From a virus: DNA of 64,000 bases. The stretch covers positions 1-64,000 of the IMG/VR virus record IMGVR_UViG_3300010391_000273. One strand, given 5' to 3'. Shown piece after piece: positions 29,484 through 54,232 of the stretch (positions are counted from its first letter, which is position 1; each line of letters opens with the position of its first letter). Under the pieces are notes generated by a model. That model was not told where the DNA came from and did no database searches. It saw only the letters and a list, made by a program, of their open reading frames with translations. A program made the translations under genes and the position numbers.

Positions 29484-29553
29484 TGGATCCCCATGGTGGG
29501 GTTGAACCACCGTCTCCTGACCGGAGCCAGGCACTCTTCTGAGCTAATGGGGA
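29484..29553 (-). tRNA. tRNA gene, shortened D arm, encoded CCA; anticodon uncertain (CCG best reading)
   Basis: On the minus strand the acceptor TCCCCAT pairs with ATGGGGA over 7 bp, followed by T and CCA. The T arm GGTGG-TTCAACC-CCACC is canonical. The D arm is only GCTC-AGAA-GAGT, and the anticodon arm CCTGG...TCAGG encloses CTCCGG, so the anticodon reads as CCG (Arg) if the loop is counted from the T. The total of 70 nt is short. Either a reduced phage tRNA or a decayed gene. Confidence 0.65.
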
Positions 29554-35482: not shown

Positions 35483-38053
35483 TTAATTGACCCTCGTTCG
35501 TACATTGTTGGATCCTAGGACATAACGCTCTTGGGTTTTTGGCTTCATCCAAGGTTTTGGACCCGAAAATTCAGTACTTGAACGTCTTTCGTCTGAAGCA
35601 TGGGACATGACATAGTAAGCAAGAGCTACAACCGCATGGTCGTCTTTGTGGTCTGCCATAAATTCTGGTCGCTTTTGATCATAGCGCATTTGGGGAAGGG
35701 TCCTAACTAGATAGGGACATCCCTGGTGGCCGTAAGCAAAGAACTGGATTCGTGGGAGGTTTTCTCCAGCTTCTTCGGCTAGGACATTATGGATAGCTGA
35801 TGCAAAGACATCCCGTTTGTTAATGGAGCATTCCATAGGGATACCATTAATCTCATAAATCTCTTTAATGGTACGGATATCAGCTGTTGTGTTGATGTCC
35901 ATGGAAGGATCACAATAAGTGATAGCTACTTTGAAAACTCCAAGGCGGATGTCTTCGTCTTTGATATCTTCTGCAACTTGGGTGGCGGTGGTCTTGTACC
36001 AAATCTTCTCGTTGAAGACGATGTGCCTGTTTCCCAGGTGGGCTATCCATAGAACTACAGTAGGATCAGGGAACCAACCTGAATCGATAGCTCGATAGAC
36101 AGTGGCATATTTAAGTATTTTGGGTAGGTCGAGTTCAGGAGTAACATGGTAGGGCTTTCCTTCTAAAGTAGGTTTAAAGTCGAATAGAGCGTTTTCCATC
36201 GAGAATTCACCATCTACCCAAGCCTTTCTGACATGGGCTGGGAGGCCGGAGAATCTCTTTTTATACTCTATGGGGAGATAAGGGTTGTCTTCCAGGTTGG
36301 CTTTAATGGCGTACCAATCAGCTGGATTGTAGTCACGATCTTCCTCTGGGTCAACAGTTTTGTCTATAAAGTATTCTTGAATCTTCTGAGCTGACATTCC
36401 CATAGGATTTGTTAGGGCTCTAACGAGGGCACCACAATTCATGTTAACAGGGGCTCGGACTGAAGAGGCCAGTTTTCTAAAGTGTTCCCATTCAAAGGTT
36501 GAGACCTCATCAAACAGGGCCAGATAGAACTCACCTCCGAGAAGGTTTAGTACGTCTTCTTCCGTATTACAGTGGGAGAAGAAACCTGCTGAACCATTAG
36601 AATAGGTTAAAATATGTTTAGTTTGATTGTAGGAGGCCCCTAGAAGTTTAGCCTCCCTAGGGATGGCATAAAGGTGGGTATTATGAGTTGGGATAGACGT
36701 GTATCCAATAAGGTATTGATGTGAAGGATGTTCTACTGCAATACACTTACAAATAGTGTCCTCGACTTGTTCACACCCTATGATATAATGATTGCTTGTC
36801 GTTAATCTAGTAATTCTAGTTGATTTATAAGTCTCTAGATTTTTTAGTTTTCTAGGAAGTCTAAAAAGAGGTAAAGAACTTGTCCATTCAACTTTATAGG
36901 CTAATTGACAAACTGACCCATTTAACTTTGGTTGGTATTCTGTAATATTTGGTTTAAATCCAAGAGAAGACACTAATATAAGAACTTGATAAGCAAGGTT
37001 TTTATTCGAATTATAGAAACCAATTAATCCATCTTTTCTTCCATGTCCATCTGTATCTAAAAGTCCTTGTAATAGAGCAAGCCTATTGTCATAACTACTT
37101 ATAAGATAAGCTGCTGGAATATGCTTTTTATTTAAAAGCCCTTGAAGACGAAGTTGTTTTTGTAACCTTAGAATACCATAACCATATTGATTTGATGGTT
37201 GTTTTCTAACTGTGTAACCAAGTTCCACAACGTGTTCAAATATCTCTGGGTCATTTGACGTGATTGCTCCACAGTCTGAAGAACCGTCACCAAGCCATAC
37301 CCCTAGTACATAAGGATTTATAGGAAGGGGTTGATTATTCTGTGTTTGCCATGGTTTTGCAATAGGAATAGAGTGATTGGCTCGTAAACCATCTTCAACT
37401 TTTAATGTATTAAAAATCTCTTGAGTAGTTCGTATTTTTGGTGATGAGTTAATATAGGTTCTGGATTGGGCACCAGACTGTATTCTCTGTTGGCCCGACC
37501 TTTCTCGATGATTTGAGGTGACCCACAAATGACCAGCACTTACAATAAAACTTTCTTTGTTGTCAAACGTTATTTTGTAGGTTCCTTGTACATCAACTTT
37601 AGGAACCGACATACCAATAATTGTCGTGGGAGATCCATCTGGAGCAAAAACTTGATCGCCAATTTCTAAGGTACCCATGGTTTTCATACCATTTGGTGTA
37701 GGAATTAGGGTGTCCAAACTACAGGCTTTTTCAAGCTCGGGGAAAGTCCTTCTTAGAATGACATACTTATAATCTGGAATAGAGAGAGCCCTAATATGAG
37801 CATCCCACCTACCAGTTGTGGACTTGGCAGAACCTCGACCACCATAGAAAAGGACGTTTTCTTCGGTACGTTGGTGATATTCTACACCTTTTTCGGTGGG
37901 AACATAAAGAACCTCATTACCAACGATAACACTACCAACATTACACCATTCACAATTAATAGATGGAGGAATAAACTTATGCCTACCATCTGGAGAAGGC
38001 TTACAAATTTTAACTAGGGGGATTGTAGTAGGATAATATAGCTCGTTAGACAA
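35483..38053 (-). CDS. terL: Large terminase subunit with an intein
   Basis: 856 aa precursor. The extein has an ATPase with Walker A GGRGSAKST (71-79), the RRTFPELEK segment (101-109), Walker B LALFDE (511-516), and nuclease acidic sites near RAIDSGWFPDP, YCDPSMDI and HKDDHAVVALAYY. Residues 111-458 are an intein inserted right after EKA. Removal leaves about 508 aa, normal for TerL. The enzyme pumps DNA into the prohead and cuts it. It overlaps the small upstream gene by 8 bases. Active enzyme requires protein splicing. Confidence 0.92.
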   Translation of the reverse strand: MSNELYYPTTIPLVKICKPSPDGRHKFIPPSINCEWCNVGSVIVGNEVLYVPTEKGVEYHQRTEENVLFYGGRGSAKSTTGRWDAHIRALSIPDYKYVILRRTFPELEKACSLDTLIPTPNGMKTMGTLEIGDQVFAPDGSPTTIIGMSVPKVDVQGTYKITFDNKESFIVSAGHLWVTSNHRERSGQQRIQSGAQSRTYINSSPKIRTTQEIFNTLKVEDGLRANHSIPIAKPWQTQNNQPLPINPYVLGVWLGDGSSDCGAITSNDPEIFEHVVELGYTVRKQPSNQYGYGILRLQKQLRLQGLLNKKHIPAAYLISSYDNRLALLQGLLDTDGHGRKDGLIGFYNSNKNLAYQVLILVSSLGFKPNITEYQPKLNGSVCQLAYKVEWTSSLPLFRLPRKLKNLETYKSTRITRLTTSNHYIIGCEQVEDTICKCIAVEHPSHQYLIGYTSIPTHNTHLYAIPREAKLLGASYNQTKHILTYSNGSAGFFSHCNTEEDVLNLLGGEFYLALFDEVSTFEWEHFRKLASSVRAPVNMNCGALVRALTNPMGMSAQKIQEYFIDKTVDPEEDRDYNPADWYAIKANLEDNPYLPIEYKKRFSGLPAHVRKAWVDGEFSMENALFDFKPTLEGKPYHVTPELDLPKILKYATVYRAIDSGWFPDPTVVLWIAHLGNRHIVFNEKIWYKTTATQVAEDIKDEDIRLGVFKVAITYCDPSMDINTTADIRTIKEIYEINGIPMECSINKRDVFASAIHNVLAEEAGENLPRIQFFAYGHQGCPYLVRTLPQMRYDQKRPEFMADHKDDHAVVALAYYVMSHASDERRSSTEFSGPKPWMKPKTQERYVLGSNNVRTRVN
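36680..37723 (-). mobile_element. LAGLIDADG intein within the large terminase
   Basis: 348 residues. The first residue is Cys (CSLDTLIPTPNGMKTMGTLE), and block B is present (SAGHLWVTS). The homing endonuclease has two dodecapeptide motifs, LGVWLGDGS and LLQGLLDTDGH (residues 250-258 and 327-337). The C-terminal splice motif is HQYLIGYTSIPTHN followed by Thr (+1). All residues needed for splicing are visible: Cys1, the block B His, terminal Asn and Thr+1, though the penultimate residue is His as usual. The insertion lies in the ATPase domain just past the Walker A region. Confidence 0.92.
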
Positions 38054-38396
38054 CCTTTAGAACCTCAGCTTCAATAACGTGGGGAGGGAGTTCTTTTGGT
38101 ATGTTTTTATTGGGGCCTAATTGAATTCCTATTTGGATTACAGGCACTTGTTTACCCTCAATTTCCTTAGGTTTGGCAGCTGAGGAGTCGATCATGCGAT
38201 CCCCCTCTTCATGTGGCATATGCTCGATGAGCTTCCATAGGACTTCTTCAGCGACCTCTAACTTACCTTCTGACTTAGCTTGGGCTGCTAACTCCATATA
38301 GGCTTCAAAAATCTCTTCAGCTCTCTCCCTTAGGAGTTCTCTAGCCACTTTAACTTTAGGGAAGTATTCACGTTTTTCACCCTTTTTAGTTAGCAT
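38046..38396 (-). CDS. Candidate small terminase subunit, 116 aa
   Basis: Helical N-terminus with a basic start (TKKGEKREYFPKVKVARELL), repeated acidic helices (EEIFEAYMELAAQAKSEGKL, VAEEVLWKLIEHMP) and a short β tail. First gene of the packaging operon and overlapping TerL, the usual place of TerS. There is no obvious helix-turn-helix, so the function is by position. Confidence 0.6.
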   Translation of the reverse strand: MLTKKGEKREYFPKVKVARELLRERAEEIFEAYMELAAQAKSEGKLEVAEEVLWKLIEHMPHEEGDRMIDSSAAKPKEIEGKQVPVIQIGIQLGPNKNIPKELPPHVIEAEVLKVV

Positions 38397-38459
38397 TGGT
38401 TTCCGCTCCCCTTACGATCATGCATGATCATTAGGAATTTTGCATGATCAGGTTTATGA

Positions 38460-38591
38460 CTATACATTCTTAACCTTTTTGACCTTTATCTCTTGACTAT
38501 TAAGATTAGGCTTTCTGGGACCTGTAGCGTGGCCCTCGGGCTTTCGAGAGATACGATCGAGTTGAATGAGAAGAAAGGTGGCTAGGGTCAT
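38460..38591 (-). CDS. Small basic protein, 43 aa
   Basis: ATG at 38591. Product MTLATFLLIQLDRISRKPEG continues with a Lys/Asn-rich tail. It stands alone upstream of the packaging genes with no convincing ribosome binding site, so it may be a leader peptide or chance ORF. Confidence 0.4.
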   Translation of the reverse strand: MTLATFLLIQLDRISRKPEGHATGPRKPNLNSQEIKVKKVKNV

Positions 38592-38861
38592 TGCTTACAA
38601 TCATGCACTTACGATTATGGGGAGCTCCCGCCATATTTGCGATCAAGCGCCGCAGGCTATGAGGTTTGGTTATAAGCCCTTTGACAATCTCAGGCTTATA
38701 TAAAGAGCCTCAATAATGTAGTTTCCGTCCATACTTAAATGGTACCAAACTATACCGACTCAACCACCCTACGGGGTCGGACTGTAGGGCACCCGACAAG
38801 CCATGTTTACGATCATGCTCCTACGATCAGGCCTATGATCATGCTTAATCATTAGGTATCT

Positions 38862-38890
38862 TGCATAATAGTTGAAAAAGGGATTGTCAA
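38862..38890 (-). promoter_or_regulatory. Leftward late-operon promoter, proximal copy
   Basis: Minus-strand TTGACA (38885-38890), 17-bp spacer, TATGCA (38862-38867). The -10 box is weak, and a GATC-rich palindrome cluster lies just downstream. Confidence 0.55.
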
Positions 38891-38917
38891 GGGAAAAGTA
38901 GTCTATCTATAAACAAT

Positions 38918-38946
38918 ATAGTACATAGATAAACCTTCATTGTCAA
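38918..38946 (-). promoter_or_regulatory. Leftward late-operon promoter, distal copy
   Basis: Minus-strand TTGACA (38941-38946), 17-bp spacer, TACTAT (38918-38923). Good consensus match, in an AT-rich stretch. With the proximal copy it forms a tandem pair pointing to the packaging and capsid genes. Confidence 0.7.
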
Positions 38947-39116
38947 GTTTTATTTATTTTTTTTTAGTTTATATGTGGACAAAGCTTCTCGTAGGATCCT
39001 ATTTTTAGTTTAGGTTTGGTCTTAAAGGGCTTAGAATCAACAAGTTAGCTATATGGGCTACTGTCACTTTAGATCCTAAAACTTGAGAAACAGGATCACG
39101 CTTCTACCCCCAGCGG

Positions 39117-39146
39117 ACTCGAACGTACTCTAACGTACTCCAACGA
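39117..39146. repeat. Three tandem 10-bp units ACTCNAACGT
   Basis: ACTCGAACGT, ACTCTAACGT and ACTCCAACGA in direct succession, exactly where base composition changes from AT-rich phage DNA to the GC-rich block. The stretch 39147-39422 holds no gene I would support and ends with two CGTTACC heptamers (39409-39415, 39417-39423). Iterons or an attachment junction are possible. Confidence 0.55.
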
Positions 39147-39422
39147 CACGCCCGAAAGTGGCGCACGCAAGGCTCCCGCCCATAGAGTACCTAAGAGTCA
39201 TATCAAACCCTAGCCCTTCCGAGGGTGTCAACACTACAAATAGTCCTTTAGAGTCGTATGGCCCCGCCTGGTCGGCTAGGTCGAGGGCAAAGCGATCACC
39301 CAATCACGCACCCTTCGGCACGCAGCACCTGGCCCTTGGGGGGCAAAGCAAAAGGGGCCGACGAGCTCCAAGGCCCATCGACCCCCTCTCCAGACCGCCG
39401 GCGTAACCCGTTACCTCGTTAC

Positions 39423-39617
39423 CTACTCAGTTATCGATTGCACGACGGCCCGCAGCGCGAAACTGACCAGGGTCATTGCTGCGAACCAACAGCCCAGGAC
39501 AAACGGAACCGCAATCAACCACGCAACGACCGTTGTCATTCGTTCGCCCATAGATCCCTCTCGCCACACCCGTTGTTGCTCAGCCCAAAACACCGCATCA
39601 TCGACTTGTTCGCTCAC
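39423..39617 (-). CDS. Small single-pass membrane protein, 64 aa
   Basis: GTG start at 39617 overlaps the preceding stop (GTGA). Charged N-terminus (SEQVDDAVFWAEQQRVWREG) then one membrane helix (TTVVAWLIAVPFVLGCWFAA). It is the last gene of a four-gene overlapping operon in the GC-rich block. Confidence 0.6.
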   Translation of the reverse strand: MSEQVDDAVFWAEQQRVWREGSMGERMTTVVAWLIAVPFVLGCWFAAMTLVSFALRAVVQSITE

Positions 39618-39805
39618 GACTGACCCCCTTCTCTCCGAACCCGCTTCACTTCGAGCAGCGCGACCTTGAATCGTAATAGCTCGCGACCCTGCAACCATCG
39701 ATACAGCAGCCTCGCAACCTCGCACGCTTCATCCGCCCGACCCAGCTTGATCTCCCTTCTCACACGCCCGACGAGAAACCAAAACATCATATCCTCTATC
39801 ATCAT
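39614..39805 (-). CDS. Small helical protein, 63 aa
   Basis: ATG at 39805 overlaps the upstream stop as ATGA; its own stop overlaps the next start. Product MMIEDMMFWFLVGRVRREIK then Arg/Leu-rich helices. Unknown function; coding status rests on the chain of 4-nt overlaps. Confidence 0.6.
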   Translation of the reverse strand: MMIEDMMFWFLVGRVRREIKLGRADEACEVARLLYRWLQGRELLRFKVALLEVKRVRREGGQS

Positions 39806-39909
39806 TCCCCCCTGTCAAACCATCGCGGATTGATCGTCACGTTCCCGAGCCAACCAAATTTTTCCAGCCTTGCCCGCCACCAGCCGACCCAATCACACAT
39901 ACCAGTCAT
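39802..39909 (-). CDS. Tiny Trp-rich protein, 35 aa
   Basis: ATG at 39909 overlaps the ATPase stop (ATGA), and its TGA overlaps the next ATG. Product MTGMCDWVGWWRARLEKFGW and onwards has six Trp residues. Exact coupling on both sides supports a real gene. Confidence 0.55.
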   Translation of the reverse strand: MTGMCDWVGWWRARLEKFGWLGNVTINPRWFDRGE

Positions 39910-41042
39910 CGTCCGCCCCCCGCACCGTCTAGCCCCAATCCCTCAAACGCCCGCACGACATCGGCCCGCTGATACCCCTTCAGCGCCTTTCCCGCCACCT
40001 TGACGGTCCTCGGAGCTAACCCATGACGCGATACCAAAGACGCCAGCATTTCAGCCGTCAGCCCACCCCGGAACACACCCCACGGCGACATCGCCCGCAA
40101 CCGACCGACGATATCTGCACTGAACATCGCCCGCCCGACGAACAGCGCCATGACATCACGCACAGCCCGCTCGCCATACGCCAGCGTAACCACCGCTTGC
40201 TCGTCTTCGTGGATTTCATTGCGCCTACGCGGCTCAGTCTTGACCGCCGCCTGATTGATCGCCCAATTTTCAAGGCGCGCCATCATCGCGACATCACACC
40301 CAAGCCAATTCGCAAGCCCGAGCATCGATCCCCAAATCTCCCGATCCCGCGCATCCAACCGTTCCGAGAACACCGGGCCGATAGCGTGCTCGCCAGTCGA
40401 GAGCACCGCCTGTATCTGCCCGCTCAACACCTGCCCCTCATGCTCTGCTACCTCCGGCAGATATTCCCGCGCCGGTCGCCCACGCTCAAGCGTCATCACA
40501 ATCGACCGCCCCCGCGCAGTCTCATCAAGATCACCAATCAACGCAAAAGCCCACACGCTGTAGCTCCGGTATTCGACCGTGCCACTGGCCCCACTTGCGC
40601 GGCCAATCGTATCGCCACGCCGATAGCCGCTATTGATCACTTCTGAAAAAAACTTGTTCCCCCTCGTTTCCGCTTCATCCCATAGCTGACTACAACGCCC
40701 ATCGGCCTCAGCAATCCGACGCAGAATGAACGCCGGAGACGGTCCAACACCTTTCCACGGCCTACGAACCAGTAACCGAACCAATTCCAAAACACGCGAC
40801 TTGCCCGCACCCTTGACCGCTGCCGTAACCGCGAGAAACGGCCACGCATAGAACCGGTCGAAAACCCAAGACCCCACACACCACAACGCCAGCACCAACG
40901 GCAGATCCTTATCGCCGGTCGCTACATACCCGCTGATCCACGACGCCACAGCTTCAAGCAACTTTTGACCGTTCGATTTTTCCACTTCAGCCCCCAAACT
41001 TGACACAATCGCCACTGATAACAGGAGCAAACAGCATACCAC
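39906..41042 (-). CDS. DUF3631-like P-loop ATPase, up to 378 aa
   Basis: The frame opens at a GTG (41042); a later start is possible as the first 20 residues are merely hydrophobic. Residues about 45-100 match the DUF3631 pattern: LPLVLALWCVGSWVFDRFYA, then a P-loop VKGAGKSRVLELV, and later SQLWDEAE (Walker B-like) and YSVWAFALIGDLDETARGRS. The C-terminal part has the family-style EIWGSMLGLANWLG. These proteins are helicase/primase-like ATPases found on plasmids and mobile islands. A replication role for the GC-rich element is inferred. Confidence 0.75.
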   Translation of the reverse strand: MVCCLLLLSVAIVSSLGAEVEKSNGQKLLEAVASWISGYVATGDKDLPLVLALWCVGSWVFDRFYAWPFLAVTAAVKGAGKSRVLELVRLLVRRPWKGVGPSPAFILRRIAEADGRCSQLWDEAETRGNKFFSEVINSGYRRGDTIGRASGASGTVEYRSYSVWAFALIGDLDETARGRSIVMTLERGRPAREYLPEVAEHEGQVLSGQIQAVLSTGEHAIGPVFSERLDARDREIWGSMLGLANWLGCDVAMMARLENWAINQAAVKTEPRRRNEIHEDEQAVVTLAYGERAVRDVMALFVGRAMFSADIVGRLRAMSPWGVFRGGLTAEMLASLVSRHGLAPRTVKVAGKALKGYQRADVVRAFEGLGLDGAGGGR

Positions 41043-41496
41043 ACAAAACCCCTGCTAACCCCTTGCATAATCGCCCTTAGACCCCTCTCATTGTGTCCTG
41101 TTTTTCACCCTATGTCCCAAAATAGCCCAGCAAGCAAACTGCATACCGGAACCAAAGCGAACACATAGCGAAAATTCCCCGCCCACAGCTCACAAAAAAC
41201 TGACCAAAAACAGCCCAATTTCCACCAGCTCACAAGACCGACCGAACGTCCGTAAACCATTGCATATCGACCAAGCACCCAGACCAGAACCCTACTCGCA
41301 CGAGCGCCGGCAGAACCTCGCGCCTACCCGCCGCGCCACCCGATACCCCGTTACCTTTGGTCGCTTGCCGAAGCTTTTCCCCCCTCGCGCCCGGACGCCA
41401 CACAACCCCGGCAAGGCGTCTAGCTGGCCCGCTACGCCCCGAACGCAGGCCGAGCGCCCCATCAGTCGGACCCCAAAAAAAAATCGTTAAAACCCC
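41043..41496. other. Divergent control region of the GC-rich block, no gene
   Basis: Between the leftward ATPase operon and the rightward operon. The open frames here look like GC-rich noise. One CGTTACC heptamer lies at 41349-41355, and an A run at 41474-41483 precedes the rightward promoter. A replication origin would be plausible but no iteron array is visible. Confidence 0.5.
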
Positions 41497-41525
41497 TTGA
41501 CAGCCCATTTCGCAAGGCGCATACT
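41497..41525 (+). promoter_or_regulatory. Sigma70-type promoter of the rightward GC-rich operon
   Basis: TTGACA (41497-41502), 17-bp spacer and CATACT (41520-41525). It is followed by a leader of about 140 bases before the first gene, whose ribosome binding site is AGGAGAACATCACC. Confidence 0.75.
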
Positions 41526-41667
41526 CCGTGAGTCAGTTCGGAACGGGGCGACGAAACGCCAAAGACGCCAGCGGCAAGACAGCGCGGCAACCTAAGCGAA
41601 GCTATACCCCAAACCGAATCATCTCAACAAACCGGGCTAACAGCCCAAACATCAGGAGAACATCACC

Positions 41668-42174
41668 ATGATCGACGGAAACAACGACGAGACTCTGACA
41701 ATCGGTGCCGCGCCGACGCCCCTGCACACTATCGCGGATCTCTTCTCTGGCGTGATCTTCATGACGCCCGCACGCCCCGAACCCTATACTTTCACCAACG
41801 GCACGAAGAGAACGCCGCTGGCCGATGTGCTGTTCGAACTCGGAAACACCGGGATCACCCTGAGCGGTGCTCAGATCGTGGACGAGCAGAACCCGAAGCG
41901 CGGACGCTCGATTCAACTCCGACTCCCGAACAAGGGCAAGGTCGGCGGTTATGATCCGCTGTTCATGGCGGAATCAGAACGGGACAAGGCGGCATTCATC
42001 GCGTTTCACAAGGACGTAGTTTCCAAGTGGGCTACGTGGCGCCGTGAGCAGGTTCTCGCCGGAACGACCGTTCGACCGAGCGAAATCAAGGCTGACGCCG
42101 TGGTTTACTCTGACGACGACCTGATCAGCCTTGGACTGATGGAGGCAAACACACCCAAGCCGGCAGCCGTCTAA
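41668..42174 (+). CDS. Unknown protein, 168 aa, first gene of the rightward GC-rich operon
   Basis: Starts MIDGNNDETLTIGAAPTPLH with a good AGGAG site. Mixed α/β content (YTFTNGTKRTPLADVLFELG, VSKWATWRREQVLAGTTVRP). No family recognised. Strong codon preference for C/G third positions, unlike the phage genes on either side, indicates a different origin. Confidence 0.7.
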   Translation: MIDGNNDETLTIGAAPTPLHTIADLFSGVIFMTPARPEPYTFTNGTKRTPLADVLFELGNTGITLSGAQIVDEQNPKRGRSIQLRLPNKGKVGGYDPLFMAESERDKAAFIAFHKDVVSKWATWRREQVLAGTTVRPSEIKADAVVYSDDDLISLGLMEANTPKPAAV

Positions 42175-42246
42175 AGACCGTCGAAAGGTGGACCGGAGCT
42201 TAGGTTCCGGTCTATCTTTGGACACGTCTTAGACAAGGTTTCCCTT

Positions 42247-42867
42247 ATGGCTAACCCCTTTAACGGATCAGCACATGGCAAGCGCGACGGTTCAGTCTAT
42301 CGAGCTTCCAAGACTGCCGACCGTGTGTTAGACATGCGTCCCGCTGCCACCCGCAAGGCTCACCCATTGTACCAGCCTGATAGCGCCCCCTCGACTTGGA
42401 CGGCAACCGAAAGCGCCGGTCTAGCATGGCAGTGCAATCAAGAAATCGAGGAAACCCGCGAAACACATGGCGACATTCGACGCCGCAGCCTAACCGAGTC
42501 AGCACACCTCGAACAGCGAACCGAGCAGCTAGACTTTGGTGTCAGGCGCGAACGTCGTATCGTCCGCAGGTGGAACGGCTACAAAGCCGAGTGGGAACCA
42601 GTTTTCAACGCCGACGGTTCCCCATGTTGGGTTAAAGGTATGCCCGAGGCGGAAGGTTGGATTGAAAACCCGCGCCTACTATGGAAGTCTGACAAAACCC
42701 TGTTACGTCAAGGACATCCAGACCAAGCACCCAAAGACATCAAACGTATCGACCCCTACACCAAACAAATCATTCGAGACGAACAAGAACGGTCCGCAGT
42801 CGAAGAAGTGCCGATCATGGACAACCTCGAAATCGACCGCTTGAACCTCGACTACAACGACCTTTAG
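42247..42867 (+). CDS. Unknown protein, 206 aa
   Basis: Arg/Glu-rich, little hydrophobic core. Segments include RRERRIVRRWNGYKAEWEPV (a short β-hairpin-like piece) and a highly charged C-terminus. It may be a DNA- or RNA-binding protein. A CGTTACC pair follows directly after its stop (42869-42875, 42877-42883). Confidence 0.65.
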   Translation: MANPFNGSAHGKRDGSVYRASKTADRVLDMRPAATRKAHPLYQPDSAPSTWTATESAGLAWQCNQEIEETRETHGDIRRRSLTESAHLEQRTEQLDFGVRRERRIVRRWNGYKAEWEPVFNADGSPCWVKGMPEAEGWIENPRLLWKSDKTLLRQGHPDQAPKDIKRIDPYTKQIIRDEQERSAVEEVPIMDNLEIDRLNLDYNDL

Positions 42868-42896
42868 CCGTTACCCCGTTACCATTTCGGTTCAAA

Positions 42897-43520
42897 ATGA
42901 CCAAAACACCACTATTGCTGTACTCAAGGGAAGTAGGCTTTTCCCGCTCCCGCGATGAGGCGATGCGTAATGAGGTGAAGTCAGTCCATAACCATAGTGG
43001 ACTAACTAACACGACATCAGCAATCAAAACCAGAATCGCTAAGGTGACTGAATCGTTAGCAACTGGCGAGCGTCTATATGCGAAGGACGCAGACACACCA
43101 ACAGCCGATCAGGGTGGACTACTCGCGGATCGCAAGGTTCAGGCCGAAGCTAGATTGAGAGAAGTAGAGATCAGAAGCGATCAGGAATTTTCCGAGCTAG
43201 TCTCAAAGTGGGAAGAGAAATTTCCCCCGGTAAACACGTTAGGACCAATCACGCCCGGCCTAATCAACGATTTAGGATTGGATCCGACAATCGTTTTCCC
43301 GGCTGGCCCATGTTGCACATTCTGCGGTAAGTCGGTCGAAGAAGTGCATGCAACACATGGCCGCCGACCCCTTCGTAAGGTCAGTGTGACCGAAGAAATT
43401 ATCGTCGCGGGCAAGCTGATCACAACGACTAAAATCGTCCACACGACCGATAAACAGCTTGCTTGCCCCGATTGTTGCCTGAAGATCACCGATACCATGT
43501 TCAAAAGTCAAAGGACATAA
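42897..43520 (+). CDS. Zinc-binding protein, 207 aa
   Basis: The N-terminal half is helical and charged (KTRIAKVTESLATGERLYAK, KVQAEARLREVEIRSDQEFS). The C-terminal quarter has CCTFCGKS and CPDCCLKI Cys pairs about 55 residues apart, forming one zinc site. Function unknown. Confidence 0.65.
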   Translation: MTKTPLLLYSREVGFSRSRDEAMRNEVKSVHNHSGLTNTTSAIKTRIAKVTESLATGERLYAKDADTPTADQGGLLADRKVQAEARLREVEIRSDQEFSELVSKWEEKFPPVNTLGPITPGLINDLGLDPTIVFPAGPCCTFCGKSVEEVHATHGRRPLRKVSVTEEIIVAGKLITTTKIVHTTDKQLACPDCCLKITDTMFKSQRT

Positions 43521-43525
43521 CGCTC

Positions 43526-43663
43526 ATGGATCAACCACACTGTTACTACTGCCACTCCACCCATACCACGTGGAATGATCGGTTCCGTTGTTACCTCTGC
43601 CACCATTGCTATCTCAAACTGGAAGATGATCGAAGACGACCAGGAATAGTAGACATGAGGTAA
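43526..43663 (+). CDS. Small zinc-ribbon protein, 45 aa
   Basis: ATG at 43526, 5 bases past the previous stop. MDQPHCYYCHSTHTTWNDRF then CYLCHHCY: four or five Cys in two knuckles. Nearly the entire protein is a zinc ribbon; a transcription or nucleic-acid adaptor is possible. Confidence 0.6.
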   Translation: MDQPHCYYCHSTHTTWNDRFRCYLCHHCYLKLEDDRRRPGIVDMR

Positions 43664-43676
43664 CACCCAAGTAATC

Positions 43677-43868
43677 ATGACAATTTACAGAATGGGGCCT
43701 AAAGTGAACGAGAAGACCTTTCCAGTAAACATCGGCCAGGACGAGCGGGACATGATCACGTCAATCCAGAACAAGATTGAGGTGAACATGGGCTACAAGG
43801 TCACTCAGCGAGCCGTGGTCACTCGTGCGATTCGCAAGATGCACGAAGAGATTTTTCAGAAAACTTGA
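43677..43868 (+). CDS. Ribbon-helix-helix-like protein, 63 aa
   Basis: KTFPVNIGQDERDMITSIQN and GYKVTQRAVVTRAIRKMHEE give strand-helix-helix order (MetJ/Arc type). Proteins like this repress transcription as dimers. It could control the GC-rich operon; its stop overlaps a TTG of the next frame. Confidence 0.6.
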   Translation: MTIYRMGPKVNEKTFPVNIGQDERDMITSIQNKIEVNMGYKVTQRAVVTRAIRKMHEEIFQKT

Positions 43869-44149
43869 TTGTCGTACCACAGTCTCTGAAGATGGCGGAC
43901 CTCATGTGTACGACCCACAAGGATTACGTCATCGCGCCGTTTGATTGCCCAGGATGCACCCATGAGGCGCTCGCGCGCATGCAGACCCTTGCACCACACG
44001 ATGCGGTGGACGACCTCGCAGAGACAGTCGCGGTGCCCACTATCTGTTGCTGTGATGAGGACGTCACGGAACCAGATGGGTCGTACATAGGCACCAAGGG
44101 GTGCATGCACGATCCGCCAGCACCCTTCTCCTTAAAACACGACGATTAA
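43865..44149 (+). CDS. Cysteine/histidine-rich protein, 94 aa
   Basis: TTG at 43865 overlaps the previous stop; ATG at 43892 is the alternative. It has CTTHKDYVIAPFDCPGCTHE and ICCCDEDVTEPDGSYIGTKG with a later Cys-His, so one or two zinc sites. Unknown function. Confidence 0.6.
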   Translation: MIVVPQSLKMADLMCTTHKDYVIAPFDCPGCTHEALARMQTLAPHDAVDDLAETVAVPTICCCDEDVTEPDGSYIGTKGCMHDPPAPFSLKHDD

Positions 44150-44170
44150 GCCAACGGATGAGGTCAAGTC

Positions 44171-44329
44171 ATGCTGTGGCGAAAGATGAAGGATCGCGGC
44201 GGGAAAATGTCCTCGGTGTGGAGATGCCCCAAGTGTAAACAGTGGAAAGTCGAGCTTCTAGCTGAGGCCTGTCACGCTTTGATAGAGTTCGACAAGGGGA
44301 TAGATGAGAACAACCCTCTACCTAAGTAG
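44171..44329 (+). CDS. Small protein with zinc knuckle, 52 aa
   Basis: ATG at 44171. MLWRKMKDRGGKMSSVWRCP then KCKQWKVELL: a CPKC knuckle in a basic helix. Short and unrecognised; coding is supported by continuous tight spacing. Confidence 0.5.
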   Translation: MLWRKMKDRGGKMSSVWRCPKCKQWKVELLAEACHALIEFDKGIDENNPLPK

Positions 44330-44339
44330 GAGTACAAGG

Positions 44340-44564
44340 ATGATCATCGAACTTGCGAACGGTGTAAAGGTTGCTACTAAAAGAGCTTCCAAGATCACAT
44401 TTAGGAAGATCGGGCTTCCCGGTTGGTGGCGGTGGTATCTCATCTACGATGCAAAGGGTGGGCAAAGCCGCAGTTTAGTAACCGTTCGTAGTATACAATC
44501 AATCAAAGGAGGAACTGATTATAGTCATTTCTTGGGAAGAAAAGAAAGTTCCTGTAAGTCGTAA
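44340..44564 (+). CDS. Small β-rich protein, 74 aa
   Basis: ATG at 44340 has AGGAG upstream and is preferred to an earlier frame start. The product MIIELANGVKVATKRASKIT, WWRWYLIYDAKGGQSRSLVT looks like a small SH3-like or β-barrel fold. No family assigned. Confidence 0.55.
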   Translation: MIIELANGVKVATKRASKITFRKIGLPGWWRWYLIYDAKGGQSRSLVTVRSIQSIKGGTDYSHFLGRKESSCKS

Positions 44565-45869: not shown

Positions 45870-46099
45870 ACAGTTTGCCGGTTAGTTCAAAATTGGAGAT
45901 CGAGTTTGGATAACAAGTAGAAACAAGAAAGCTACTATTGTCCATCTCACTAGTAGTGGATGAAGATTGGAGGGTTTCTGGCCATTTGCCCTCGCTCATG
46001 GCGGGTCGGACTGGGGATCGCGCTGTGGAATACCAGTGCAGGGCTCCTGCCGATGATGGTCCGCTGATTGCACACCCAACAACTCAGGAGAAACGAATC

Positions 46100-46969
46100 A
46101 TGAAACGATTGACATGGGGATTTCTTGCACTCGTGTGTGTCTACAGTCTGCTCGTCGGCGGGTGTTCGTTGGACAAGGGGTCCACAGGGCCCTCGGCAGT
46201 CGAATTGGGGACTCCGGTGTCGCCAGGATCACAGCTGTACACCCTCGTGGGGAGTCAGTTTTTGGGGACATTGACCGCCAATGTGGGTGGCACCAGTGGA
46301 ACATTGGGCATCCTGTTTACCTCAGAAGGGGGCACCGCTGTGACCGCAACGGTGACGTTCAACGATGGCCAGGGCTATGTGGGCGATGCCGTAGGGACAC
46401 TGAGCAACCTCCATACACTCGCGCGCAACGGATTATCGGGTGGCGGGTGTACGGCATGGGAGAGTCAGGGAACGGTGACGTTGGCTGTGCCGCCTGCTCG
46501 CGACACCTACACAGGCTCGTACTACGCCACATGCCACAACAGTCCTTCAGCGGTGTTTGGTGATAGCGGGACGTTTGCTCTTTCCCGTACAGGGACATTG
46601 GGACTTCCGATTCCGCCGCCTCCAGTGATTGTAGACGTGTGTCCTAATCTTGAAGGGACACAGCTTGTCGTGCCAGCGGGATACGTCCTCACAAATGGGC
46701 AGTGTGTCCTGATTCCCCCTCCGCCACCGCCCCCGCTGCTCTGCTCCACGTCCTACTGGAGGATGAACAATGGGAACACGAACGCCAAACAGAACAAGTG
46801 CGTGAACAACGGTGGTACGTGGCTCGGAGAGTTTGACGTGCCGGGATCAGCAGCCGGTATCGAGCACGACGTATGCAAGTTCCAACCGAATCCACCGGGC
46901 GCACCAGGGAACGATGAGACATTGATCACGCCGCCTGGATTGACGCCGATTGCGTGTCCGATCTCGTAG
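46100..46969 (+). CDS. Secreted lipoprotein, 289 aa
   Basis: The start has an AGGAG site seven bases upstream. The signal MKRLTWGFLALVCVYSLLVG ends in a GGC lipobox, so it is processed by signal peptidase II and lipidated at Cys23. The body is a Gly/Thr-rich β region (LGTLTANVGGTSGTLGILFT, VTATVTFNDGQGYVGDAVGT), then a Pro-rich linker and a C-terminal domain with several Cys. GC content is above that of the neighbours. It may change the host surface (superinfection exclusion) or be a captured host gene. Confidence 0.75.
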   Translation: MKRLTWGFLALVCVYSLLVGGCSLDKGSTGPSAVELGTPVSPGSQLYTLVGSQFLGTLTANVGGTSGTLGILFTSEGGTAVTATVTFNDGQGYVGDAVGTLSNLHTLARNGLSGGGCTAWESQGTVTLAVPPARDTYTGSYYATCHNSPSAVFGDSGTFALSRTGTLGLPIPPPPVIVDVCPNLEGTQLVVPAGYVLTNGQCVLIPPPPPPPLLCSTSYWRMNNGNTNAKQNKCVNNGGTWLGEFDVPGSAAGIEHDVCKFQPNPPGAPGNDETLITPPGLTPIACPIS

Positions 46970-53353: not shown

Positions 53354-54232
53354 ATGAAGAAGATCATCATGGTAACCCTAGGCATGTTGAGTGCTGGCCT
53401 TCTGTGTGCCCAAACGGGGAAACTGTATATTGGTCCAGAGAACCCCACAGATACCCGGTGGGCTACTAAAGCAGACTTTGATGGCTCCATTATCTTTTGC
53501 CGTGGGTTCTATACGAGTGATCGACAAGAGGCTAATGGGGGTGGATGGTGGACCGATTACCCAGGCGGTGATAACAATTTCCTTGTGAGACTCTCTGAGT
53601 TGACGGAGACTCGGGTAAGGTTCTCCAAGGATCGAATTCCCTTCTTTGTAGTTGTGCATCTGGACGATCCGCTTCTGTTCAAATGTCCGATCCTGTTTAT
53701 GGAGGATGTAGGGACAGTACGATTCACCGATCGGCAAGTGGAGATGCTCACACGATATTTTGCTCAAGGTGGCTTCTTGTGGGTTGATGACTTCTGGGGC
53801 TCACAAGCTTGGGAGCAGTGGGAGTATGAGATTCGACGGGTCTTACCATCGGGAACCCATCCGATGTTTGACATCCCTACCGACCACCCGATTATGCACA
53901 TGCTGTATGAGGTGCCAAAGATTCATCAGCAGCCCACAATTGGGTTATGGAACACAAGTTGCTCGGGCGATGAGTTTGACTCTGACGCCACAGTCATTCC
54001 ATGCCTTGATCAACGCTGGCCCACCTCCGAACGTGGGGCCGACAGCGCAGAAGTCCACTTTAGAGGCATTCAAGATGAGAATGGCCACCTCCAAGTCGTC
54101 ATGACACATAACACAGACATCGCGGATGGCTGGGAAGAGGAAAAGCCCAATAACATGGCCTACATCCATGAGTTTTCCGCTAAGTGCTACGCGATTGGCG
54201 TCAACATCTTTTTATATGCGCTTACCCATTAA
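53354..54232 (+). CDS. DUF4159-like secreted protein, 292 aa
   Basis: Signal peptide (MKKIIMVTLGMLSAGLLCAQ). DUF4159 hallmarks: FCRGFYTSDRQEANGGGWWT, DYPGGDNNFLVRLSELT, LDDPLLFKCPILFM, and YFAQGGFLWVDDFWGSQAWE then RRVLPSG. The family is mostly bacterial, often within larger membrane-associated proteins, and its function is unknown. Here it is a single-domain periplasmic or secreted form. Capture from a bacterial host is probable. Confidence 0.8.
   Translation: MKKIIMVTLGMLSAGLLCAQTGKLYIGPENPTDTRWATKADFDGSIIFCRGFYTSDRQEANGGGWWTDYPGGDNNFLVRLSELTETRVRFSKDRIPFFVVVHLDDPLLFKCPILFMEDVGTVRFTDRQVEMLTRYFAQGGFLWVDDFWGSQAWEQWEYEIRRVLPSGTHPMFDIPTDHPIMHMLYEVPKIHQQPTIGLWNTSCSGDEFDSDATVIPCLDQRWPTSERGADSAEVHFRGIQDENGHLQVVMTHNTDIADGWEEEKPNNMAYIHEFSAKCYAIGVNIFLYALTH

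Follow-up and report, generated by a model that had tools for sequence, protein, structure and literature searches.

Does a stretch of DNA whose composition departs from that of the surrounding phage have to be a foreign insert, or can it belong to the phage? This question is raised by a block rich in guanine and cytosine (GC-rich), carrying an ATPase operon of its own, in the virus record IMGVR_UViG_3300010391_000273. We analyzed bases 1–64,000 of this 98,575-bp record (the window) together with the remainder of the record and related phages. An initial annotation had described an inserted block at 39.1–44.1 kb that resembles a plasmid, satellite or phage-parasite module, with a chimeric assembly to be excluded. 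Based on comparisons with relatives, we conclude that the block is a native, conserved module of a family of ~100-kb phages, and we propose that this module probably initiates replication from iterons.

The record is a tailed phage. Its leftward genes encode the terminase, a portal-like connector and the major head protein; its right arm carries genes for RNA ligases, an AAA_25 helicase (at 78.5 kb of the record), a fusion of uracil-DNA glycosylase (UDG) and PolA (PolA-type polymerase at 93.7 kb) and a Dam methylase. In this fusion (L003:11743–14556, record 93743–96556), a domain of the uracil-DNA-glycosylase superfamily is joined to a family A DNA polymerase. An AAA_25 gene is also present in G001, together with partial matches to the UDG-PolA protein. 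The phage family comprises little-known, uncultivated tailed phages of ~100 kb, and no cultured member was found.

Conservation of the GC-rich block next to the terminase genes

The following features define the block and its neighborhood:
39109–44150, no strand: GC-rich module, recognized by GC content, codon use and the recurrence of its position and composition shift among relatives
39906–41042, minus strand: putative DUF3631/RepAM-type AAA+ replication initiator, 378 amino acids as called (PF12307; homologues in L012, L015, L020 and L009; structural model)
38046–38396, minus strand: 116-amino-acid protein upstream of TerL, a neighbor conserved in relatives, at the position of a small terminase
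35483–38053, minus strand: terminase large subunit with LAGLIDADG intein, used as synteny marker
42247–42867, plus strand: 206-amino-acid protein; homologue collinear in L019 (5114–5650, minus strand)
42897–43520, plus strand: 207-amino-acid protein carrying CxxC pairs, with a collinear homologue in L019 (3314–3817, minus strand)
44304–44564, plus strand: 86-amino-acid protein beyond the block as first delimited, GC 0.44; homologue collinear in L019 (2773–2979)

The GC content is 0.56 within 39109–44150, compared to 0.44 for the remainder of the record, and the three genes with the most deviant codon use among 66 genes of at least 150 codons (at 41668, 39909 and 42247) all lie inside the block, in agreement with the initial annotation. 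Measured per kb, GC rises abruptly from 0.41 to 0.57–0.60 at 39.1 kb and then falls gradually to 0.50 by 43–44 kb. Of the bounded block originally described, only the sharp left edge is therefore confirmed, since no right edge exists. The plus strand is G-rich across most of both arms and this skew is reversed within the module, but no clear origin is marked by GC-skew.

Relatives were identified in contigs from independent metagenomes by scanning with an alignment of two portal sequences (portal identity 52–69%); one of these contigs, L012, belongs to a 99,793-bp record of which L019 is another part. No matches were obtained when single proteins (the window's own DUF3631, 168-amino-acid and portal proteins) were used to scan viral and genome contigs, or when the region was compared with annotated phages by blastn. 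Wherever the contig of a relative reaches far enough, the DUF3631 gene is located directly upstream of the terminase, in full in L012, L015 and L020 and with its end in L009. In each of the nine relatives whose sequence extends more than 600 bp upstream of the terminase genes, GC is higher upstream than downstream of these genes (for example, 0.60 versus 0.47 in L015 and 0.63 versus 0.48 in L007), and GC at third codon positions of the DUF3631 gene is 0.65–0.70 in all four full copies. Raised GC is thus a trait that the module maintains across the family. The genes for the 206-, 207- and 86-amino-acid proteins of the rightward arm (42.2–44.6 kb) have homologues in L019, with order and direction kept. 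Because the 86-amino-acid gene is among them but lies outside the block at a GC of 0.44, the arm continues and the right edge is no boundary.

In a tree including outside DUF3631 proteins, the phage copies cluster weakly (74/57), with L012, L015 and L020 firmly together. The portal tree joins the same three to L013 and places the window with L008 and L009. Together with the shared place and composition, these groupings are the pattern predicted by vertical descent. Judged by these comparisons, the GC-rich stretch is a native conserved module and not a foreign insert.

Recent insertion of a mobile element, be it a satellite, a plasmid or another kind, would account for the distinct GC content and codon use as well as for the plasmid-type initiator. 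The likeness seen in the initial annotation stands to this extent: the block does stand out in composition, and its main protein is a member of a replication family of plasmids and mobile elements. However, the same gene occurs at the same place and with the same composition in distant relatives from independent metagenomes, a finding that the annotation itself had named as speaking against its proposal, and the right arm is collinear. Satellites, including phage-inducible chromosomal islands (PICI), and actinomycete integrative and conjugative elements (AICE) are recognized by an integrase of their own and by being separable and absent from related phages. Here, neither tyrosine nor serine integrases (PF00589, PF07508) were matched anywhere in the two ~100-kb records, and the module sits at the same place in relatives. 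A ParA-type gene (PF13614) was likewise missing from both records, other types of partition system not having been searched, and no defence families were found in the block. Recent insertion is therefore scarcely credible. A chimeric assembly would fit the sharp left edge, but there is next to no chance of it, since contigs assembled from independent metagenomes (L012, L015, L020 and L009) show the same junction between module and terminase. We rejected the insertion, satellite, parasite and chimera readings on the grounds of synteny, while an ancient acquisition by the ancestor of the family is possible. A strong shift of composition within a phage is thus insufficient for calling an insertion.

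The DUF3631 ATPase and the 8-bp doublets

The first gene of the leftward operon matches PF12307 (DUF3631) with an E-value of 3.5e-7 and 31 bits, above the Pfam gathering cut-off of 24; its homologues score 49.6 bits (L012) and 49.2 bits (L020). The ATPase operon recognized in the initial annotation is thereby substantiated, including its three 4-nt overlaps (ATGA at 39906–39909, ATGA at 39802–39805 and GTGA at 39614–39617). The true start of the protein is probably located ~20 codons downstream of the called one. PHROGs and NCBIfam gave no match for the phage protein, and among 50,697 phage records searched with DUF3631 queries, Pseudomonas phage Phipami28 (PV029746) was the sole match, with 25% identity. 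DUF3631 corresponds to RepAM, the plasmid-type replication initiators of pMEA300-type elements, and the autonomous replication of pMEA300 is due to RepAM (PMC3218068).

An AlphaFold model based on nine sequences, with a mean local confidence score (pLDDT) of 82, shows an AAA+ ATPase of the MCM/D5/PriRep class. The best solved structural matches are MCM subunits (Z 15–17, 231 residues, 4.2 Å), and Foldseek matches also include AsfvPrimPol and SaPI5 PriRep1 (7PDS). The top viral fold matches that carry a name are TOPRIM-primase, DUF927, VapE-like and DUF3987 proteins. When residues 283–368 were predicted alone, they showed the order of elements of a winged helix (pLDDT 88); the structural matches of this C-terminal domain were generic only (Z 5–7), without a strong match in the PDB.

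The candidate recognition sites were first noticed as CGTTACC heptamers. These are present as described, but with seven in the window against 4.3 expected, their number is within chance, and we rejected the plain heptamer as an enriched motif. What is significant is their arrangement: the five heptamers of the block lie on one strand at three intergenic places, in doublets with a period of 8 bp (GGGGTAAC-like units). The minus strand, on which they lie, is the sense strand of the terminase and ATPase genes. The relevant features are:
39410–39425, minus strand: doublet A, TAGGTAAC GAGGTAAC
41342–41357, minus strand: doublet B, AAGGTAAC GGGGTATC, flanked by the divergent operons; of its two heptamers, one is exact and the other carries a mismatch
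42870–42885, minus strand: doublet C, ATGGTAAC GGGGTAAC, between the genes for the 206- and 207-amino-acid proteins
39909–40196, minus strand: C-terminal winged-helix domain of the putative initiator, proposed iteron reader (separate model)
38915–38975, no strand: AT-rich stretch (83% A+T) in the gap between module and terminase, candidate unwinding element

Seven modules of the family contain 17 exact period-8 doublets, as opposed to 1.35 ± 1.17 in dinucleotide shuffles (largest value 5); seven more occur in the remaining 139 kb of phage DNA. Periods of 7, 9 and 10 bp yield 0, 2 and 4 doublets in the modules, and a period of 11 bp yields seven against 1.6 expected, for which we have no explanation. 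The unit varies by lineage (GGGGTAAC, GGTGTAAC, GGTGTTGC, GGTGCAAC, GGTGTGAT, GGTGTNAC), yet the tandem doublets share the strand of the terminase. Among the relatives, we found GGTGTAAC in L009, GGTGTTGC at six sites in L012, GGTGCAAC at three sites in L015, GGTGTGAT in L007, GGTGTTAC/GGTGTGAC in L020 and a GGTGTTAC-type unit in L034. The sole candidate on the opposite strand is a looser 6-of-8 match common to L006 and L007. The AT-richest stretch of L012, L015 and L020 is likewise located between the ATPase and terminase genes.

By analogy to SaPI Rep and Cch2, whose C-terminal domain binds short repeats adjacent to the gene of the helicase (PMC7581432), we propose that the DUF3631 protein could oligomerize on the paired iterons, which it would read through its C-terminal winged helix. 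The assembled ATPase would then melt nearby DNA, possibly the A+T stretch at 38.9 kb beside the terminase genes, and replication would start there before being handed over to the AAA_25 helicase and PolA-type polymerase of the phage. This proposal provides a candidate origin for the phage family, a doublet pattern that could help to locate origins in metagenomic phages, and a testable function for a DUF family in phages. Iterons and initiators that co-diverge with fixed geometry would amount to a natural experiment in the recognition of origins by initiators.

Several known systems are close to the proposed one. SaPI Rep and Cch2 (PriRep1, PDB 7PDS) share the AAA+ fold class and short direct repeats near the helicase gene (PMC7581432), and the predicted winged helix would correspond to their C-terminal DNA-binding domain. 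They differ in that the phage protein lacks a primase domain, the phage is not a satellite, and its repeats are doublets dispersed over 3.5 kb and not located solely downstream of the gene. Phipami28 also encodes a DUF3631 protein, but it is a different phage and no 8-bp GGTG-type doublets were found around the gene. RepAM initiators of actinobacterial integrative conjugative elements (pMEA300 type) belong to the same Pfam family, are stand-alone ATPases of similar size and have a neighboring replication role; in the Streptomyces plasmid L005, short direct repeats directly follow the gene. Unlike them, the phage ATPase (~25% identity) has no adjacent Prim-Pol, Tra or integrase gene, its repeats are 8-bp doublets in place of the 9-bp repeats of L005, and it is encoded in a genome with virion genes. 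The P4 alpha protein is an initiator helicase with a C-terminal winged helix and short, GGTG-type type I iterons; despite this similarity, it differs in its primase domain, ATPase class and iteron sequence. Literature searches on the doublet sequences and on P4 iterons yielded nothing useful.

A related doublet in other phages and competing explanations

We scanned viral contigs for GTGTNACGGTGTNACGG by DNA alone, using a complete scan with a base-matched scrambled doublet as control. The doublet was found in at least 120 stretches compared to 23 for the scramble. Among the matches listed are L034, a contig of the same family in which doublets precede the terminase genes, and two unrelated loci with a DUF3631 gene, which the doublet precedes by 54–62 bp (L040) and 418 bp (L066). 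The largest open reading frame (ORF) within 1.5 kb of the 81 listed loci encodes AAA_25 (26), Prim-Pol (18), DUF5906 (6), VapE (4) or DUF3631 (2) proteins, with DUF927 and DUF3987 also present. According to local models, a replication ATPase is nearby in 34 of these 81 loci but at only one of 60 positions more than 4 kb away on the same contigs. In a clade of AAA_25 phages (L032, L035, L039, L050, L054, L059, L082, L091 and others), GTGTNACGGTGTNACGG is located on the same strand 88–90 bp past the primase-helicase stop codon, which makes this a candidate origin position.

More tentatively, and with considerable doubt, the GGTGTNNN 8-bp doublet might be a general phage origin code used by several unrelated initiator classes (AAA_25/Prim-Pol, VapE, DUF5906 and DUF3631); within the family, the word would drift with the initiator of each lineage while strand and 8-bp pairing are kept. 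If so, sequence alone would be sufficient to call origins throughout uncultivated phages.

Some observations weigh against an iteron-based module. For RepAM, the predicted mode of initiation is rolling-circle replication, which would set it apart from an MCM-like helicase (PMC3218068). Clustering reduces the 81 proteins to 43 groups, with 26 proteins in a single one, so that the independent evidence comes from a handful of lineages; about four of the 43 are nameable replication clusters compared to one of 45 in the control, and the enrichment by independent protein clusters is modest. Four to five of 22 scrambled doublets are also near DUF5906/VapE genes, and the scramble may therefore be another iteron spelling instead of a neutral control. 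Since the C-terminus of AAA_25 proteins differs from that of DUF3631, the association does not demonstrate a common reader. L006, L013 and L014 have no terminase-strand doublet within their 0.8–1.1 kb of sequence. Outside the family, the DUF3631 loci L004, L021 and L022 lack 8-bp doublets of this kind, L005 has 9-bp repeats and L023 a single nearby 8-bp doublet of other sequence; the link between DUF3631 and this doublet is therefore not universal. Finally, the sites are scattered over 3.5 kb without a single packed array, which would suit operators too.

The main rival explanation is indeed that the doublets serve as operators (of a stoperator-like or activating kind) for a phage regulator whose gene lies in the module, and that the DUF3631 protein replicates DNA without them. 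L5-type stoperators are dispersed sites on the same strand, the doublets are likewise scattered, in intergenic positions between or behind operons, and the module encodes several small and CxxC-pair proteins. However, the doublets stay on one strand despite flanking genes on both, and the related doublet, retrieved by DNA alone, adjoins replication ATPases in other phages, including the two unrelated DUF3631 loci. We therefore regard operators as unlikely. Alternatively, the module could be a plasmid-like maintenance replicon (phage-plasmid life style) apart from the lytic replication system. An initiator of plasmid type would fit, and because the phage encodes an AAA_25 helicase and a PolA-type polymerase of its own, two replication systems are conceivable; with neither an integrase nor a ParA-type gene, the partition type searched, in the ~100-kb records, this is very unlikely.

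Further features of the locus

The remaining features of the block are:
39802–39909, minus strand: 35-amino-acid ORF with ATGA overlap at each side (sequence)
39614–39805, minus strand: 63-amino-acid protein; ORF with no family above cut-off
39423–39617, minus strand: 64-amino-acid protein with hydrophobic segment, encoded at the end of the leftward operon; ORF with GTGA overlap
41043–41667, no strand: divergent intergenic region, candidate control/origin region (ORF map)
41497–41525, plus strand: sigma-70-like promoter TTGACA-17-CATACT of the rightward operon (sequence)
41668–42174, plus strand: 168-amino-acid protein with the most deviant codon use (ORF, codon use)
43526–43663, plus strand: 45-amino-acid CxxC-pair protein (ORF)
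43677–43868, plus strand: 63-amino-acid protein (ORF)
43865–44149, plus strand: 94-amino-acid protein (ORF)

The divergent rightward operon behind a good promoter, as initially annotated, is thus located, and L012 carries a counterpart of this promoter (TTGACAGCCCC...TATGCT) ahead of its 163-amino-acid gene. Homology between the 163-amino-acid protein and the 168-amino-acid protein of the window was suspected by eye but found unsupported on comparison. The tandem units noted at the left edge are also present: ACTCNAACGT occurs four times in the window against 0.22 expected, twice as 10-bp tandem units at 39117–39136. Upstream of the terminase genes (38410–38870), there are repeated palindrome-like ACGATCATGC/TGATCAT motifs (D2, D3, I1 and I2), which are possibly regulatory.

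The intein of the terminase spans about residues 108–460, and the terminase genes of L006 and L012 are uninterrupted. In L013 (2203–2826) and L020 (3414–3992), the gene is split by ~0.6 kb; the insert of L020 encodes a 192-amino-acid HNH-like protein and resembles the insertion of a homing endonuclease at approximately the same site.

Searches against Rfam, PADLOC and NCBIfam gave no matches. Record G000 has an 11-C run at both ends, probably an end or assembly artefact and not a terminal repeat. A 343-amino-acid lipoprotein-like ORF (45938–46969; GC 0.58) without family match ranks fourth in codon-use deviation and is possibly host-derived. On the minus strand, ARAGORN predicts a tRNA-like gene at 29484–29553, with no anticodon assigned. 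The phage also encodes a DUF4159 protein (53354–54232; E 4e-35) with an N-terminal signal-like segment.

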